64,000 nt of DNA from Reyranella soli (GTDB lineage Bacteria > Pseudomonadota > Alphaproteobacteria > Reyranellales > Reyranellaceae). This document shows positions 33,610 to 37,882 of the stretch, piece after piece (the first letter of the stretch is position 1; every line of letters starts with the position of its first letter). Position numbers and translations under genes: made by a program. The stretch spans positions 1-64,000 of the forward strand of contig NZ_BKAJ01000011.1 in the NCBI RefSeq assembly GCF_007992495.1. The letters run 5' to 3'. Under the pieces are notes generated by a model. It made no database searches. It saw only the letters and a program-made list of their open reading frames with translations, and had not been told where the DNA came from.

Positions 33610-34092
33610 GTGAAGAAGACCGCCAAAGCCTCGGCGCACGGCCACGACCACAAGCATTGCATCGAGGACGCCCTGGCGGCGGCCGAGAAGCTGTGTTCCG
33701 AAAAGGACCTGCGCTTCACGCCCTTGCGCCGCCGCGTGCTCGAGCTCGTCTGGTCGAGCCACAAGCCGGTCGGTGCCTATGCCCTGCTCGACGAGCTACG
33801 CAACGAGGAGCTGGGCTCAGCCCCGCCCACGGTCTATCGCGCGCTCGATTTCCTGATCGACAACGGCCTGATCCATCGCATCGAGCGCATGAACGCCTTC
33901 GTCGGCTGCAGCCATCCCGGCGAGGCGCATCGCGGCTTCTTCCTGATTTGCGGCGACTGCGGCAATGCCGAGGAACTGCACAGCGACGGGCTTGCCGAGT
34001 CGATCTCGGCCAGCGCCAACCGCCGCGGCTTCGCCGCGCGCGACATGACCCTGGAAGTCATGGGCACCTGCGCCGACTGCCGCAAGGCTTAG
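33610..34092 (+). CDS. zur: Fur-family transcriptional regulator, Zur-like
   Basis: A 160-aa Fur-family repressor. The N-terminus is His-rich (HGHDHKHC). The winged-helix domain contains LRFTPLRRRVLELVWSSHKP and SAPPTVYRALDFLIDNGLIH. The C-terminal domain has two CxxC pairs (ICGDCG and CADC) forming the structural zinc site. The RFTPLRRRVLELVWSSHKPV segment fits alphaproteobacterial Zur best, so zinc-responsive repression is likely; Irr and Mur are less likely because of the Cys4 site and motif. GTG at 33610 gives the natural N-terminus. Confidence 0.88.
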   Translation: MKKTAKASAHGHDHKHCIEDALAAAEKLCSEKDLRFTPLRRRVLELVWSSHKPVGAYALLDELRNEELGSAPPTVYRALDFLIDNGLIHRIERMNAFVGCSHPGEAHRGFFLICGDCGNAEELHSDGLAESISASANRRGFAARDMTLEVMGTCADCRKA

Positions 34093-34093
34093 C

Positions 34094-34278
34094 TCATGGT
34101 CGTCCGGACCGCGAGCCCCTGCCTTCGCCGAAGCGAAGCCGCTTCGGCTTCGCGCAGGCAGGTCCGGCTCGGACCTCTGTCATCCCGAGCGTAGCGAGGG
34201 ATCTTTCCTGCGGCTTAAAGGTCCCTCGCTATGCTCGGGATGACAGAACAGGAGGCTGGCGGTCCGGAAGACCATGAC
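34094..34278. repeat. Nested composite repeat
   Basis: Outer arms TCATGGTCGTCCGGACCGC (34094-34112) and GCGGTCCGGAAGACCATGA (34260-34278) are inverted. Inside are a 51-bp hairpin segment (34115-34165), identical to the reverse complement of 37012-37062, and a complete TCATCCCGAGCG element (34178-34246). The right arm ends one base before the DUF952 start codon. Confidence 0.85.
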
Positions 34279-34623
34279 ATGACGACAGTTTACAAAATCA
34301 TCGCCGCCGATCTGTGGCAGGCAGCCGAAGACAACGGCGTTTTCGCCGGCGCCGGGATAGACCTGAACGATGGCTTCATCGATCTGTCCACGGGAGCGCA
34401 GGCGAGGCGGACGGCCCAGCTGTACTTTGCAGGTCAGGACAATCTCGTCCTTGTGGCGGCTGACGGCGCGCGCCTTGGAGACGCGCTGAAGTATGAGCCT
34501 TCGCGCGACGGCGATCTGTTTCCGCACCTCTATGGACCGCTGCCATTGGCGGCGGTCCTGTCGGTGCGACGGCTGCCTCTTGGTAGAGACGGTAATCACA
34601 TCTTCCCGGATGATGTGACCTGA
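34279..34623 (+). CDS. DUF952 family protein
   Basis: A 114-aa protein matching DUF952: VYKIIAADLWQAAEDNGVFA, then GAGIDLNDGFIDLSTGAQAR, LVLVAADGARLGDALKYEPS and FPHLYGPLPLAAVLSVRRLP. The family is related in fold to RNA 2'-phosphotransferase/ART-like proteins but has no demonstrated activity. Its start lies directly against a palindromic repeat that also supplies the GGAAG upstream of the ATG, so expression may depend on the repeat. Confidence 0.87.
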   Translation: MTTVYKIIAADLWQAAEDNGVFAGAGIDLNDGFIDLSTGAQARRTAQLYFAGQDNLVLVAADGARLGDALKYEPSRDGDLFPHLYGPLPLAAVLSVRRLPLGRDGNHIFPDDVT

Positions 34624-34752
34624 CGGCAATTCCGGCCGACGGACGGGCGACCCAGCGACCATCGGTATGCATGTTGCGACGTGCCAGCGCGACTCCTAGA
34701 GTCGCGTGGGGGTCAAAGGCTGCACGCAGCCAAATAATAAAGGGAGCCTGTC

Positions 34753-35817
34753 ATGGAGATCAGCCGTTTGCGTCGTCGTCACGTCGTCTCATTGCTCGGA
34801 GGCGCCGCCGCCGTTGGCGTGTCGGGCCGGGCTTTCGCCCAGGCCGAGCCGCCCAAGCCGGCCCAGATCGTGGTCAATCATTCCGGCGGGTCGATGGGCA
34901 GTGCCATGCGCAAGGCCTTCTTCAACGGCTTCGAGAAGAAGTACGGCATCCGGGTCGTCGAGACGAGCCCGGTCGACTTCGGCAAGCTGCGCGCCATGGT
35001 CGACTCGGGGAATGTCGAATGGGACCTGACCGAGATCGGCGGTCAGGACGCCATCCGCGCCGGCAAGGCCAACCTGCTCGACAAGGTCGATCCGAAGGTC
35101 GTCGATCGTTCGAAGTACCCGGAGACGGCGCAGAACCCCTATGTCTTCGCCTCGTCGGTCTACACCACGATCATCGGCTACCGCACCGATGTCTTCAAGA
35201 ACGGCAGCCAGCCCAAGAGCTGGGCCGACTGGTGGGACGTCAAGAAGTTCCCCGGCGCGCGCTCGATGCGCAACCATCCGACCGACAATCTCGAGTTCGC
35301 GCTGATCGCCGACGGTGTGCCGAAGGACAAGGTCTATCCGATCGATTTCGACCGTGCCTTCAAGAAGCTCGACCAGATCAAGCCGCACGTCACCGCCTGG
35401 TGGTCGACCGGTCAGCAGCCGGCGCAGCTCCTGCTCGACAAGGAGGTCGTGCTGGCGACGGGCTGGAACGGCCGCTTCTACGACATCATCAAGAAGGGCG
35501 CGCCGGTCGAGATCGAGTGGAATGAGGGCGCTCTGAAGCAGGGCAGCTTCGCCATTCCGCGCGGCGCGAAGAACCCGTACTGGGCCAACAAGATGCTGGC
35601 CGAGCTCGCGATCCCGCAACAGCAGGCGGTCTACGCCTCCGAGCTCGGTTATCCCGGCCTCAACCTCGAATCGCTGAACTTCGTCGACGCCAAGGTGAAG
35701 CCCTATCTGCCGACGGCATATCTCGAAAAGCAGTTCTGGATCAGTGACGAATGGTATGCCGAGCACGGCACCAAGGCGGCCGAGCTGTGGAACGCCTGGA
35801 TGCTGAAGAAAGCGTGA
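34753..35817 (+). CDS. Polyamine-type ABC transporter, substrate-binding protein
   Basis: A 354-aa extracytoplasmic binding protein of the spermidine/putrescine (PotD-like, SBP_bac_8) type. The N-terminal RRRHVVSLLGGAAAVGVSGR is a Tat-like signal ending in AFAQA. The mature part holds GSMGSAMRKAFFNGFEKKYG, EWDLTEIGGQDAI and GYRTDVFKNGSQPKSWADWW. Ligand is inferred from the neighbouring ATPase, permeases and amine oxidase. First gene of the operon. Confidence 0.9.
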   Translation: MEISRLRRRHVVSLLGGAAAVGVSGRAFAQAEPPKPAQIVVNHSGGSMGSAMRKAFFNGFEKKYGIRVVETSPVDFGKLRAMVDSGNVEWDLTEIGGQDAIRAGKANLLDKVDPKVVDRSKYPETAQNPYVFASSVYTTIIGYRTDVFKNGSQPKSWADWWDVKKFPGARSMRNHPTDNLEFALIADGVPKDKVYPIDFDRAFKKLDQIKPHVTAWWSTGQQPAQLLLDKEVVLATGWNGRFYDIIKKGAPVEIEWNEGALKQGSFAIPRGAKNPYWANKMLAELAIPQQQAVYASELGYPGLNLESLNFVDAKVKPYLPTAYLEKQFWISDEWYAEHGTKAAELWNAWMLKKA

Positions 35818-35842
35818 GCGGCCCCCTGGTGAGCAGCAGGTA

Positions 35843-36886
35843 GTGAGCAACAGGGGATCGGCCGACCTCCTGATCGAGGGGGTCGGCAAGCGCTTCGGCG
35901 AGGTCATGGCGCTGAACGGTGTCTCGCTGCAGGTGGCGCAAGGTGAGCTTCTGACCATCCTGGGCCCCAGCGGCTCAGGCAAGACCACGCTGCTGAAGGT
36001 CGTCGCCGGCTTCGAGACGCCTGACGGTGGAACGGTGACGGTGGGCGGGGAGGAGATCACCGCCCTGCCGCCGGCCAAGCGCGACATCGGCATGGTGTTT
36101 CAGAACTATGCGCTGTTCCCTCATCTGACGGTGCAGGGCAACGTTTCGTTCCCGCTCGAGATGCGCAACGTGGCTCGGGCGGAAATCGACCGGCGCGTTG
36201 CCGAGGCCATCGCGATGGTCGAGCTCAAGGGCTACGAACGGCGCCTGCCGCGCCAGCTCTCCGGCGGCCAGCAGCAGCGCGTCGCGCTGGCCCGTGCCAT
36301 CGTCTTCAATCCGCGCCTTCTCCTGCTCGACGAGCCGTTCGGTGCACTCGACCGCAAGCTGCGTGAGACCATGCAGCTCGAGGTCCGGCGCCTGCAGCGC
36401 AAGCTCGGCCTGACCACGATCTTCATCGCCCACGACCAGGAAGAGGCGCTGGTCCTGTCGGACCGCATCGCCGTGATGAACCACGGTACGATCCAGCAGG
36501 TCGCAACGACGACCGAGATCTATGAACGGCCGGCCAACGATTTCGTCGCCGACTTCGTGGGCGAGAGCAACATCTTCCACGGCACGGTGAGCGCGCCGGG
36601 CACGGTCGCGCTGGACAACGGCCGCACACTCAAAGTCGCCAGTAGCCTGCCGGCCGGCCGCAAGGTCGGCGTGCTGATGCGGCCGGAACGCTTCTCGCCC
36701 GGCGGCGCCAACGCGTTCGTCGGAGAGGTGCTGGAGGCGGTCTATCTCGGCACGTCCTTCAAGCTGCGTCTCGCCTGCGAAGGCGGCATGGAACTGCTCA
36801 TCCGCCAGCCGGCGAAGGGTTCGCTGCCGGGAACCGGCGCGCGCATCGAGGTCGGCATCGAGCCGGACGCCATCCATGTGTTCTGA
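35843..36886 (+). CDS. Polyamine-type ABC transporter, ATP-binding protein (PotA-like)
   Basis: A 347-aa ATPase: Walker A GPSGSGKTT, Q-loop QNYALFPHLT, signature LSGGQQQR, Walker B LLLLDEPFGALD and AHDQ switch, followed by a TOBE domain from about residue 270. Length and TOBE fit PotA/FbpC-type importers. GTG at 35843 is used. A near-duplicate GTGAGCAGCAGG lies 14 bp upstream, so the start is slightly uncertain. The downstream permease gene is separated by a 186-bp repeat block. Confidence 0.92.
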   Translation: MSNRGSADLLIEGVGKRFGEVMALNGVSLQVAQGELLTILGPSGSGKTTLLKVVAGFETPDGGTVTVGGEEITALPPAKRDIGMVFQNYALFPHLTVQGNVSFPLEMRNVARAEIDRRVAEAIAMVELKGYERRLPRQLSGGQQQRVALARAIVFNPRLLLLDEPFGALDRKLRETMQLEVRRLQRKLGLTTIFIAHDQEEALVLSDRIAVMNHGTIQQVATTTEIYERPANDFVADFVGESNIFHGTVSAPGTVALDNGRTLKVASSLPAGRKVGVLMRPERFSPGGANAFVGEVLEAVYLGTSFKLRLACEGGMELLIRQPAKGSLPGTGARIEVGIEPDAIHVF

Positions 36887-36900
36887 TCATGCGGATCCGC

Positions 36901-37062
36901 TCATGCTCTTCCGGACCGCGCGCTGGGTCGCGTCTGACGCGACCTTCCTCGCGCGCCTCATGAGCGCGCGAGGACGCGCGCGGTCCGGAAGACGAAGACA
37001 TGAGCGGGCCTGGACCTGCCTGCGCGAAGCCGAAGCGGCTTCGCTTCGGCGAAGGCAGGGGC
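36901..37062. repeat. Composite palindromic repeat inside the ABC operon
   Basis: Outer arms TCATGCTCTTCCGGACCGCG (from 36901) and CGCGCGGTCCGGAAGACGAA (to about 36995), with an inner CTCGCGCGC-CTCATGA-GCGCGCGAG stem. A second module at 37012-37062 is the 51-bp hairpin that also occurs, inverted, at 34115-34165. The block separates the ATPase and permease genes of one transporter. Confidence 0.85.
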
Positions 37063-37072
37063 CCGCAGTCCG

Positions 37073-37882
37073 ATGACCGGCCGTGCCGCCTGGCCGGCGC
37101 TACCGGCGCTGATCCTGCTGTTCGTGTTCTTCCTCTTCCCGGTCGTGCGCATGCTGGGCTTCAGCCTCGAGGGGGGCACGCTCGAGTGGTATGCAAAGGC
37201 GCTGGGCGAGGGCCTGTATTTGCGAGTGATGTGGAACACCTTCGAGATCGCCCTGCTGGTCTCGCTGCTTTGTCTGTTGCTGGGCTATCCCCTGGGCTTC
37301 CTGATCGCCACGACGACGCCGGGCTGGGCGACGATGGGCTTCATCTTCGTGCTGCTGCCGCTCTGGACGTCGGTGCTGGTGCGCACCTACGCCTGGATGG
37401 TGTTGCTCGGCCGCAACGGCGTGTTCAATCGCCTGCTGATGGATGCCGGCATCACCAGCGATCCCATCCCGATGCTGCACAACTTCACCGGCGTGCTGAT
37501 CGGCATGGTCCATGTCCTGCTGCCCTACATGGTCCTGCCGATCTACGGCGCGGTGCGGCGGGTCGATCCGGCGGTGGTCGCGGCGGCGGCAGGGCTGGGC
37601 GCCTCGAACTGGCGCATCTTCTGGCGCATCTACATTCCGCTCACGCTGAACGGCATCTTCGCCGGCTGCGTGCTGGTCTTCGTGCTGTCGCTGGGCTTTT
37701 TCATCACGCCGGCGCTGCTGGGTGGCGGCCGGGTCATCATGATCGCCGTGCTGATCGAGCAGCAGGTGCGTGAGGCGCTGAACTGGCCGTTCGCCGCCGC
37801 CCTGTCGGCCGTCCTGCTCGTGGCGACCTTCGCTGTCTATGCGCTTGCGCAGCGCTTCACCCAGCCGGAAGCCAGGACATGA
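37073..37882 (+). CDS. Polyamine-type ABC transporter, permease 1 (PotB-like)
   Basis: A 269-aa inner-membrane permease with six hydrophobic segments. The typical VRTYAWMVLLGRNGVFNRLL and the EAA loop AAAAGLGASNWRIFWRIYIP (about residues 168-187) are seen. It pairs with the next gene to form the channel. The start ATG immediately follows the repeat block and has no good ribosome-binding site, so its expression relative to the ATPase gene may be altered. Confidence 0.92.
   Translation: MTGRAAWPALPALILLFVFFLFPVVRMLGFSLEGGTLEWYAKALGEGLYLRVMWNTFEIALLVSLLCLLLGYPLGFLIATTTPGWATMGFIFVLLPLWTSVLVRTYAWMVLLGRNGVFNRLLMDAGITSDPIPMLHNFTGVLIGMVHVLLPYMVLPIYGAVRRVDPAVVAAAAGLGASNWRIFWRIYIPLTLNGIFAGCVLVFVLSLGFFITPALLGGGRVIMIAVLIEQQVREALNWPFAAALSAVLLVATFAVYALAQRFTQPEART

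Follow-up and report, generated by a model that had tools for sequence, protein, structure and literature searches.

A 45-bp hairpin module inside REP-type units and unrelated repeats of Reyranella soli and other alphaproteobacterial genomes

The window (64,000 nucleotides of Reyranella soli, contig NZ_BKAJ01000011.1, positions 1 to 64,000) carries two inverted copies of a short hairpin in the vicinity of an ABC transporter operon. The first copy lies in a REP-type unit between a fur-like gene and a DUF952 gene, and the second lies in the spacer between the ATPase and permease genes of the operon. The features of this region are as follows:

34094..34117, + strand: REP-type unit, left half with head TCGTCCGGACCGC and a stem arm that ends in GAGCC, from the sequence; similar units occur genome-wide
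34118..34162, + strand: 45-bp hairpin module, copy A; exact pattern match, DNA fold of -17.9 kcal/mol, z of -3.94
34163..34171, + strand: interrupted REP-type unit, loop TCC with right stem arm, from the sequence
34176..34247, no strand: second palindromic repeat of the GTCATCCCGAGCGTAGCGAGGGATC type in the same spacer as copy A; inverted repeat with many genomic copies
34254..34277, - strand: closing inverted half-unit (GGCTGGCGGTCCGGAAGACCATGA); inverted repeat
34753..35817, + strand: ABC transporter solute-binding protein gene (SBP_bac_8), Pfam
35843..36886, + strand: ABC transporter ATPase gene (ABC_tran, TOBE_2), Pfam
36876..37076, + strand: 66-aa bridging ORF; opens at an ATG within the end of the ATPase gene, crosses the repeat spacer, and closes with a TGA that overlaps the start of the permease
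36899..37003, no strand: two REP-type units head to head; inverted repeats, fold z of -10.55
37004..37014, + strand: host REP-type unit, left stem arm (GCGGGCC) with loop (TGGA), from the sequence; stem of 7
37015..37059, - strand: 45-bp hairpin module, copy B; exact pattern match
37060..37072, + strand: host unit, right stem arm with inverted head (GGCCCGCAGTCCG), from the sequence; adjoins the permease ATG
37073..37882, + strand: ABC transporter permease gene (BPD_transp_1), Pfam

The gene order of relatives varies at the 34093-34281 spacer: in one genome (G004, locus L105), the fur-like gene directly precedes the binding-protein gene, and in another (G013, L103), DUF952 overlaps a different upstream gene. 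At 36926-36944, the first of the two head-to-head REP-type units encloses a small hairpin (GGTCGCGTC-TGA-CGCGACC) in its stem-loop; this hairpin may be another nested module.

An earlier note on this DNA described a 51-bp segment at 37012-37062 as identical to the reverse complement of 34115-34165, both copies adjoining the same outer arms. The base-for-base inverted identity was borne out, and both copies indeed lie inside units with CGGACCGC/CGGACTGC-type arms. In a repeat search of the window, the inverted identity extends to arms of 61 nt (34105-34165 and 37012-37072) that are 97% complementary, and a 20-bp piece of the 51-mer, allowing up to 3 mismatches, has just these two occurrences in the window, where 0.04 would be expected. 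The match is far beyond chance. The extent and the uniqueness of the pair did not hold up as described. Comparison of copies reduces the shared unit to a 45-bp quasi-palindrome, CCTGCCTTCGCCGAAGCGAAGCCGCTTCGGCTTCGCGCAGGCAGG, which lies forward at 34118-34162 and reverse at 37015-37059, whereas the 3 bp beyond either end of it (GCC and TCC) are stem and loop of the interrupted host repeat; moreover, the genome contains 20 copies (≤3 mismatches).

As single-stranded DNA, the module folds with about -18 kcal/mol (z of about -4). Like a MITE, it ends in terminal inverted repeats (CCTGCCT/AGGCAGG). Its length corresponds to 15 codons, and none of its six frames contains a stop. The region 33900-37300 gave no Rfam match at the gathering threshold.

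The module is a dispersed, multi-copy element. The earlier note had named a lack of further copies in the genome as evidence against its reading, and this does not apply: besides the pair, there are 18 more at up to 3 mismatches, the reversed control pattern giving 0. Of all 20 copies, 14 show no mismatch to the pattern, in which one position was left free. Among 60 sampled congeneric genomes, six hold 2, 3, 5, 13, 13, and 19 copies and 54 hold none (≤3 mismatches), so that 7 of the 61 genus genomes carry the module, the window's own included; the reversed control was 0 in all 61. Absence here means the lack of close copies, and diverged copies past the mismatch limit turn up in non-carriers (e.g. 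G009 and G041). In a sample of the class, 3 of 385 genomes match, again counting the window's own.

The same sequence is found across several genera. The exact 45-mer (two positions free) occurs in 53 stretches from 19 assemblies, six of them congeneric and 13 from outside the genus (G141 and G443-G454, none of the latter twelve being in the 65-genome genus list). All 13 are labeled as MAGs; the names of 12 are alphaproteobacterial, including two Pelagibius as well as Xanthobacteraceae, Hyphomicrobiales, and Rhizobium, while the thirteenth is named just Proteobacteria. A search of plasmids, phages, and viral contigs returned zero matches, and carriage of the module by a plasmid or phage was rejected. 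The mismatch-free copies and the presence of the same 45-mer in records of other genera support the recent copying that had been proposed for the pair, in the form of dispersal of a multicopy element; gene conversion between the two window copies, proposed as its alternative, is superfluous to account for their identity.

Both window copies interrupt REP-type units, the main hosts in this genome, which consist of a head (CTTCCGGACCGC or similar), a variable self-complementary stem with the loop TCC or TCCA (TGGA on the other strand), and the tail TCATGA. When the sequences flanking the module at 34.1 kb are joined, the resulting 20-mer is found empty in 10 contexts (≤2 mismatches). Other copies interrupt unrelated repeats, for example, with the module at the caret, GCTGCGC^TCGGGATGAC, ACGCCGA^CGGAGGGG, GTCTCGA^AGGATG, CGCCCGCCGA^AGCGGGC, and GAGGAACGA^AGTGACGAAG. 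In the main families, the junctions are seamless: the joined flanks restore an intact host repeat, and, at variance with a MITE, there is no target-site duplication.

We analyzed 99 distinct copies, after merging those whose flanks are identical over 20 bp on the left and 30 bp on the right; because copies have host families in common, the counts are not independent. Most insertions lie 3' of GA: the dinucleotide directly precedes the module on one strand in 83 of the 99 copies, compared with 12.5% of 19,800 random positions, and is lacking in 16. The joined 20-mer (≤2 mismatches) was found empty elsewhere in the fetched loci for 66 of the 99 copies and for 37 of 200 random 20-mers drawn from the same repeat-rich loci, so that seamless junctions stand beside empty copies of the host repeat. 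A preference for palindromes as such, scored as base pairs across the site, failed to set copies (67 of 99) apart from random positions (71%) and was replaced by a test for a stem around the GA. A perfect stem of at least 7 bp surrounds the site in 29 of the 83 GA copies (0.9% of 3,642 random GA sites), and one of at least 5 bp in 40 (7.1% of the same sites). These enclosed sites lie mostly at the boundary of loop and 3' stem of REP units, from which the stem excess mostly derives, and for 43 of the 83 GA copies, no stem of at least 5 bp surrounds the site. Low fold energy is also commoner at module sites (63 of 99; 36% at random).

Within each main host family, the module has one orientation. 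Seven host groups, whose patterns were composed after the data had been seen, took in 85 copies, of which 84 have the majority orientation relative to the host; 14 copies were unassigned. The exception among assigned copies is L172, and the unassigned L178 looks reversed with respect to the CTCGA^AGGATG group. Two orthologous places were found with the unit and without the module, one at the permease start of G054, whose edge is similar to 37060..37072, and one at the C74 site in G063; independent acquisition of the unit at these places is possible. Right after the stop codon of another conserved gene, the congeners examined (L295-L310) again show differing repeats or other sequence.

Not all forms of the module are 45 bp long. 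Two genomes of different groups contain a 42-bp form with a different center (L282 and L290; position 301, - strand), and three 75-bp forms have a longer center (L279, L281, and L283; position 301). L279 and L283 have related central sequence at seemingly orthologous places in two genomes, and L281 has another center. Symmetric forms of 51 bp (L277, 301-351) and 40 bp (L278, 301-340) lie inside near-symmetric host units and look like the outcome of template-switch correction of quasi-palindromes. These variants come from a search of 12 genomes for half-modules, in which 18 fetched places yielded 45-bp copies, variant short modules, and truncated or unrelated matches, a search that diverged autonomous relatives could escape. 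Among these 18 places, no larger element with the module's ends was found and no variant encloses a gene.

REP-type units of the same kind as the hosts flank RAYT genes. The window's genome contains two Y1 transposase genes (PF01797) that are flanked by inverted REP-type units and whose closest NCBIfam model is NF047646 (RAYT), with a score below the cut-off; the model scores above the cut-off in 6 of 21 genomes. Among 18 congeneric RAYT loci, 16 gave an ORF and two none; 12 were displayed with both flanks, and four were useful on the 3' side alone. REP-type units lie on both sides of all 12 genes with two displayed flanks, often with an identical stem, a count that takes in the 3' unit of L235 from a separate view and one partly degenerate unit each in L222 and L242. 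The host units lack a GTAG tag at the foot of the stem and read CTTCCGGACCGC-stem-TCATGA.

RAYT genes are present in all seven congeneric carriers of the module and in just two of 14 other carriers; they were not found in the remaining 12 carriers outside the genus, where MAGs can miss genes. RAYT as an obligatory mobilizer of the module is therefore unsupported outside the genus, and RAYT is unlikely to be its general mobilizer. The IS110-type domain PF02371 occurs in 13 of 21 carriers and in 8 of 14 non-carrier congeners; its distribution does not follow that of the module, and co-occurrence was rejected as an argument for the IS110 family as mobilizer. In one carrier from outside the genus (G449), a RAYT-like gene (L229) has an unrelated flanking repeat, in which TTTCGGGGACGCCTTA occurs.

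The spacer that harbors copy B varies widely between species, relatives having different repeats or none. Of 43 junction loci tried, five were dropped, as their contig did not include the permease or the end of the ATPase, leaving 38 genomes. In 15 of these, the start codon of the permease is an ATG within the ATPase end (usually cATGTxTTC); 23 have a spacer of 2-228 nt between the two genes. In eight of the 23, a permease-frame start further upstream is possible, and the start at or nearest to residue 1 of the window's permease was used. In 22 of the 23, the frame from the ATG inside the ATPase end is open through the spacer, and its stop overlaps the permease start, by a 4-nt NTGA in 18 genomes and by 1, 8, 8, and 11 nt in the other four. 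In the exception, G057, the bridging frame stops 19 nt early.

These frames suggest translational coupling of ATPase and permease through the repeats. Selection may have kept translation of the permease coupled to that of the ATPase, or may have avoided untranslated mRNA within the operon. The open frame could instead be a chance by-product of GC-rich, stop-poor repeats, an explanation that we consider doubtful, albeit worth keeping. It gains from the fact that a single spacer is fairly often open in a given frame by chance (0.2-0.96 in shuffles), but 20 of the 21 spacers of at least 30 nt are open in the same frame, which holds one stop compared with 24 and 16 in the other two (two shorter spacers were omitted from this count). 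Furthermore, the spacer length is a multiple of 3 in 13 of 15 sequence clusters. The product of the open-frame probabilities over these 15 clusters is 7 × 10⁻⁵, an indicative value, as it includes the cluster of G057, which is actually closed. Chance is also at odds with the other repeat-bearing same-strand spacers of this genome, just one of 13 of which shows a bridging ORF. Repeats by themselves hence do not give a bridge, and a bridging ORF as a general trait of repeat spacers was rejected.

Taken as a whole, the pair is best read as two insertions of one mobile 45-bp hairpin into REP-type units by an enzyme supplied in trans, with a coupled bridge at 37 kb, a reading to which we assign a probability of roughly 0.6. 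The enzyme would be strand-specific and would act on hairpin, probably single-stranded, DNA, cutting after GA and pasting the module with no duplication of the target. Our first guess for this enzyme, at somewhat less than even odds, would be a Y1/HUH transposase of the RAYT or IS200 kind, followed at longer odds by an IS110-like recombinase. At 37 kb, the spacer frame would begin at the old permease start and end on the new one, so that permease translation would stay coupled to the ATPase; the hairpin-filled spacer would be tolerated because it is open in this bridging frame.

For the module, the strongest competitor supposes one or a few entries into each host family, after which composites of REP and module would have been amplified by the REP machinery or by gene conversion. 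The constant orientation within each main host family and the similar flanks within a family are what such a spread of composites would leave behind. However, the REP hosts surround the same module with different self-complementary stems (GAGCC, GGACC, GGGCC, CGGCC, GCCAC, and GCGCA), most of them with empty counterparts, and other genera add many unrelated host families. We regard this history as distinctly the less probable one. Much less probable still is a conserved functional element, such as a protein- or RNA-binding hairpin, a terminator, or an mRNA stabilizer, held identical by selection and not by recent movement. Whereas the occurrence of one 45-mer in several genera and its strong fold would suit such an element, its patchy distribution (seven of the 61 genus genomes, 3 of 385 in the class sample), surroundings that are not conserved among relatives at the two sites compared, and the lack of an Rfam match argue against it. 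A two-copy inverted repeat that arose by gene conversion and inverts the 34.1-37.1 kb segment, as the earlier note had envisaged from the perfect inverted identity, is highly improbable given 20 copies genome-wide and an ATPase and permease in the same relative orientation in all 38 genomes that have both on one contig.

An inversion switch was rejected on these two grounds; the 38 genomes are colinear as assemblies, and a rare inverted subpopulation would be compatible with such data. The pair as such is ordinary, but it gives a glimpse of a hairpin element that is nested, spans genera, and follows a target rule, and copy B lies in an apparently translated bridge.

The reading as insertions of a mobile hairpin could be extended, although we think it improbable in this full form, to an independent, gene-less mobile unit of alphaproteobacteria. 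Such a unit would cross orders and target GA in loops or junctions of any resident palindromic repeats, strand-specifically and without duplication, through an undescribed enzyme acting in trans. Its length of 15 codons and its lack of stops in every frame would allow it to enter translated DNA, and nested repeats at some operon junctions would be kept as translated bridges that couple the neighboring genes.

The spacers of many bacteria are filled by short palindromic repeats, among them kinds that have no dedicated transposase with which to spread. One module nested in many unrelated repeat families provides sites before and after insertion from which a target rule and an enzyme can be deduced. 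In addition, the bridging frame offers a directly testable reason why one operon junction would tolerate hairpin-rich DNA.

Several known systems resemble parts of this picture. The small dispersed repeats of cyanobacteria (Elhai et al. 2008) are reportedly very small mobile hairpins inside other repeats; they belong to a different lineage, and we liken them to the module by description, not by sequence. Rickettsia palindromic elements are palindromes compatible with reading frames and are located inside protein genes, whereas the module copies examined lie mostly in other palindromic repeats. The host units are close to the REP/RAYT systems and REPINs (Di Nocera et al. 2013, PMC3733652; Bertels and Rainey 2011, PMC3116915; Nunvar et al. 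2010, PMC2817692), being short hairpins, often in head-to-head pairs, that flank Y1 transposase genes with NF047646 as best NCBIfam model. They differ in their layout, CCGGACCGC-stem-TCATGA, without a GTAG tag. The 45-bp module departs further, as it was not seen flanking RAYT in the displayed genes and is present where no RAYT was found. For CGTC repeats, Di Nocera et al. find no associated transposase (PMC3733652).

Insertion sequences that target REPs, such as ISPa11, ISPpu9, ISRm22, and others, do so at a fixed REP position (Tobes and Pareja 2006, PMC1525189). ISPa11 is described as having no direct repeats and broken REPs on one strand, and some REP-targeting insertion sequences insert at the symmetry axis (PMC1525189). 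The module shares with them the fixed position in REPs and, with ISPa11, the lack of direct repeats and the restriction to one strand. In contrast to these elements, which carry a transposase, it consists of 45 bp without a gene and is thus no insertion sequence. The 45-mer itself is not described in any title or abstract opening among the papers listed by the literature searches. A further parallel is offered by REPs inside other palindromes, namely GTAG-23 in T. roseum, GTAG-15 in A. variabilis, and CGTC-1 in H. neapolitanus (PMC3733652), where, as with the module, a small palindromic repeat lies inside another palindrome. Here, however, a single module occupies many unrelated families of host palindromes in different genera and follows the rule of a junction after GA. 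REPs in palindromes (PMC3733652) and insertion sequences targeted to REPs (PMC1525189) are known; one module in many host families is the new part, within the literature searched.
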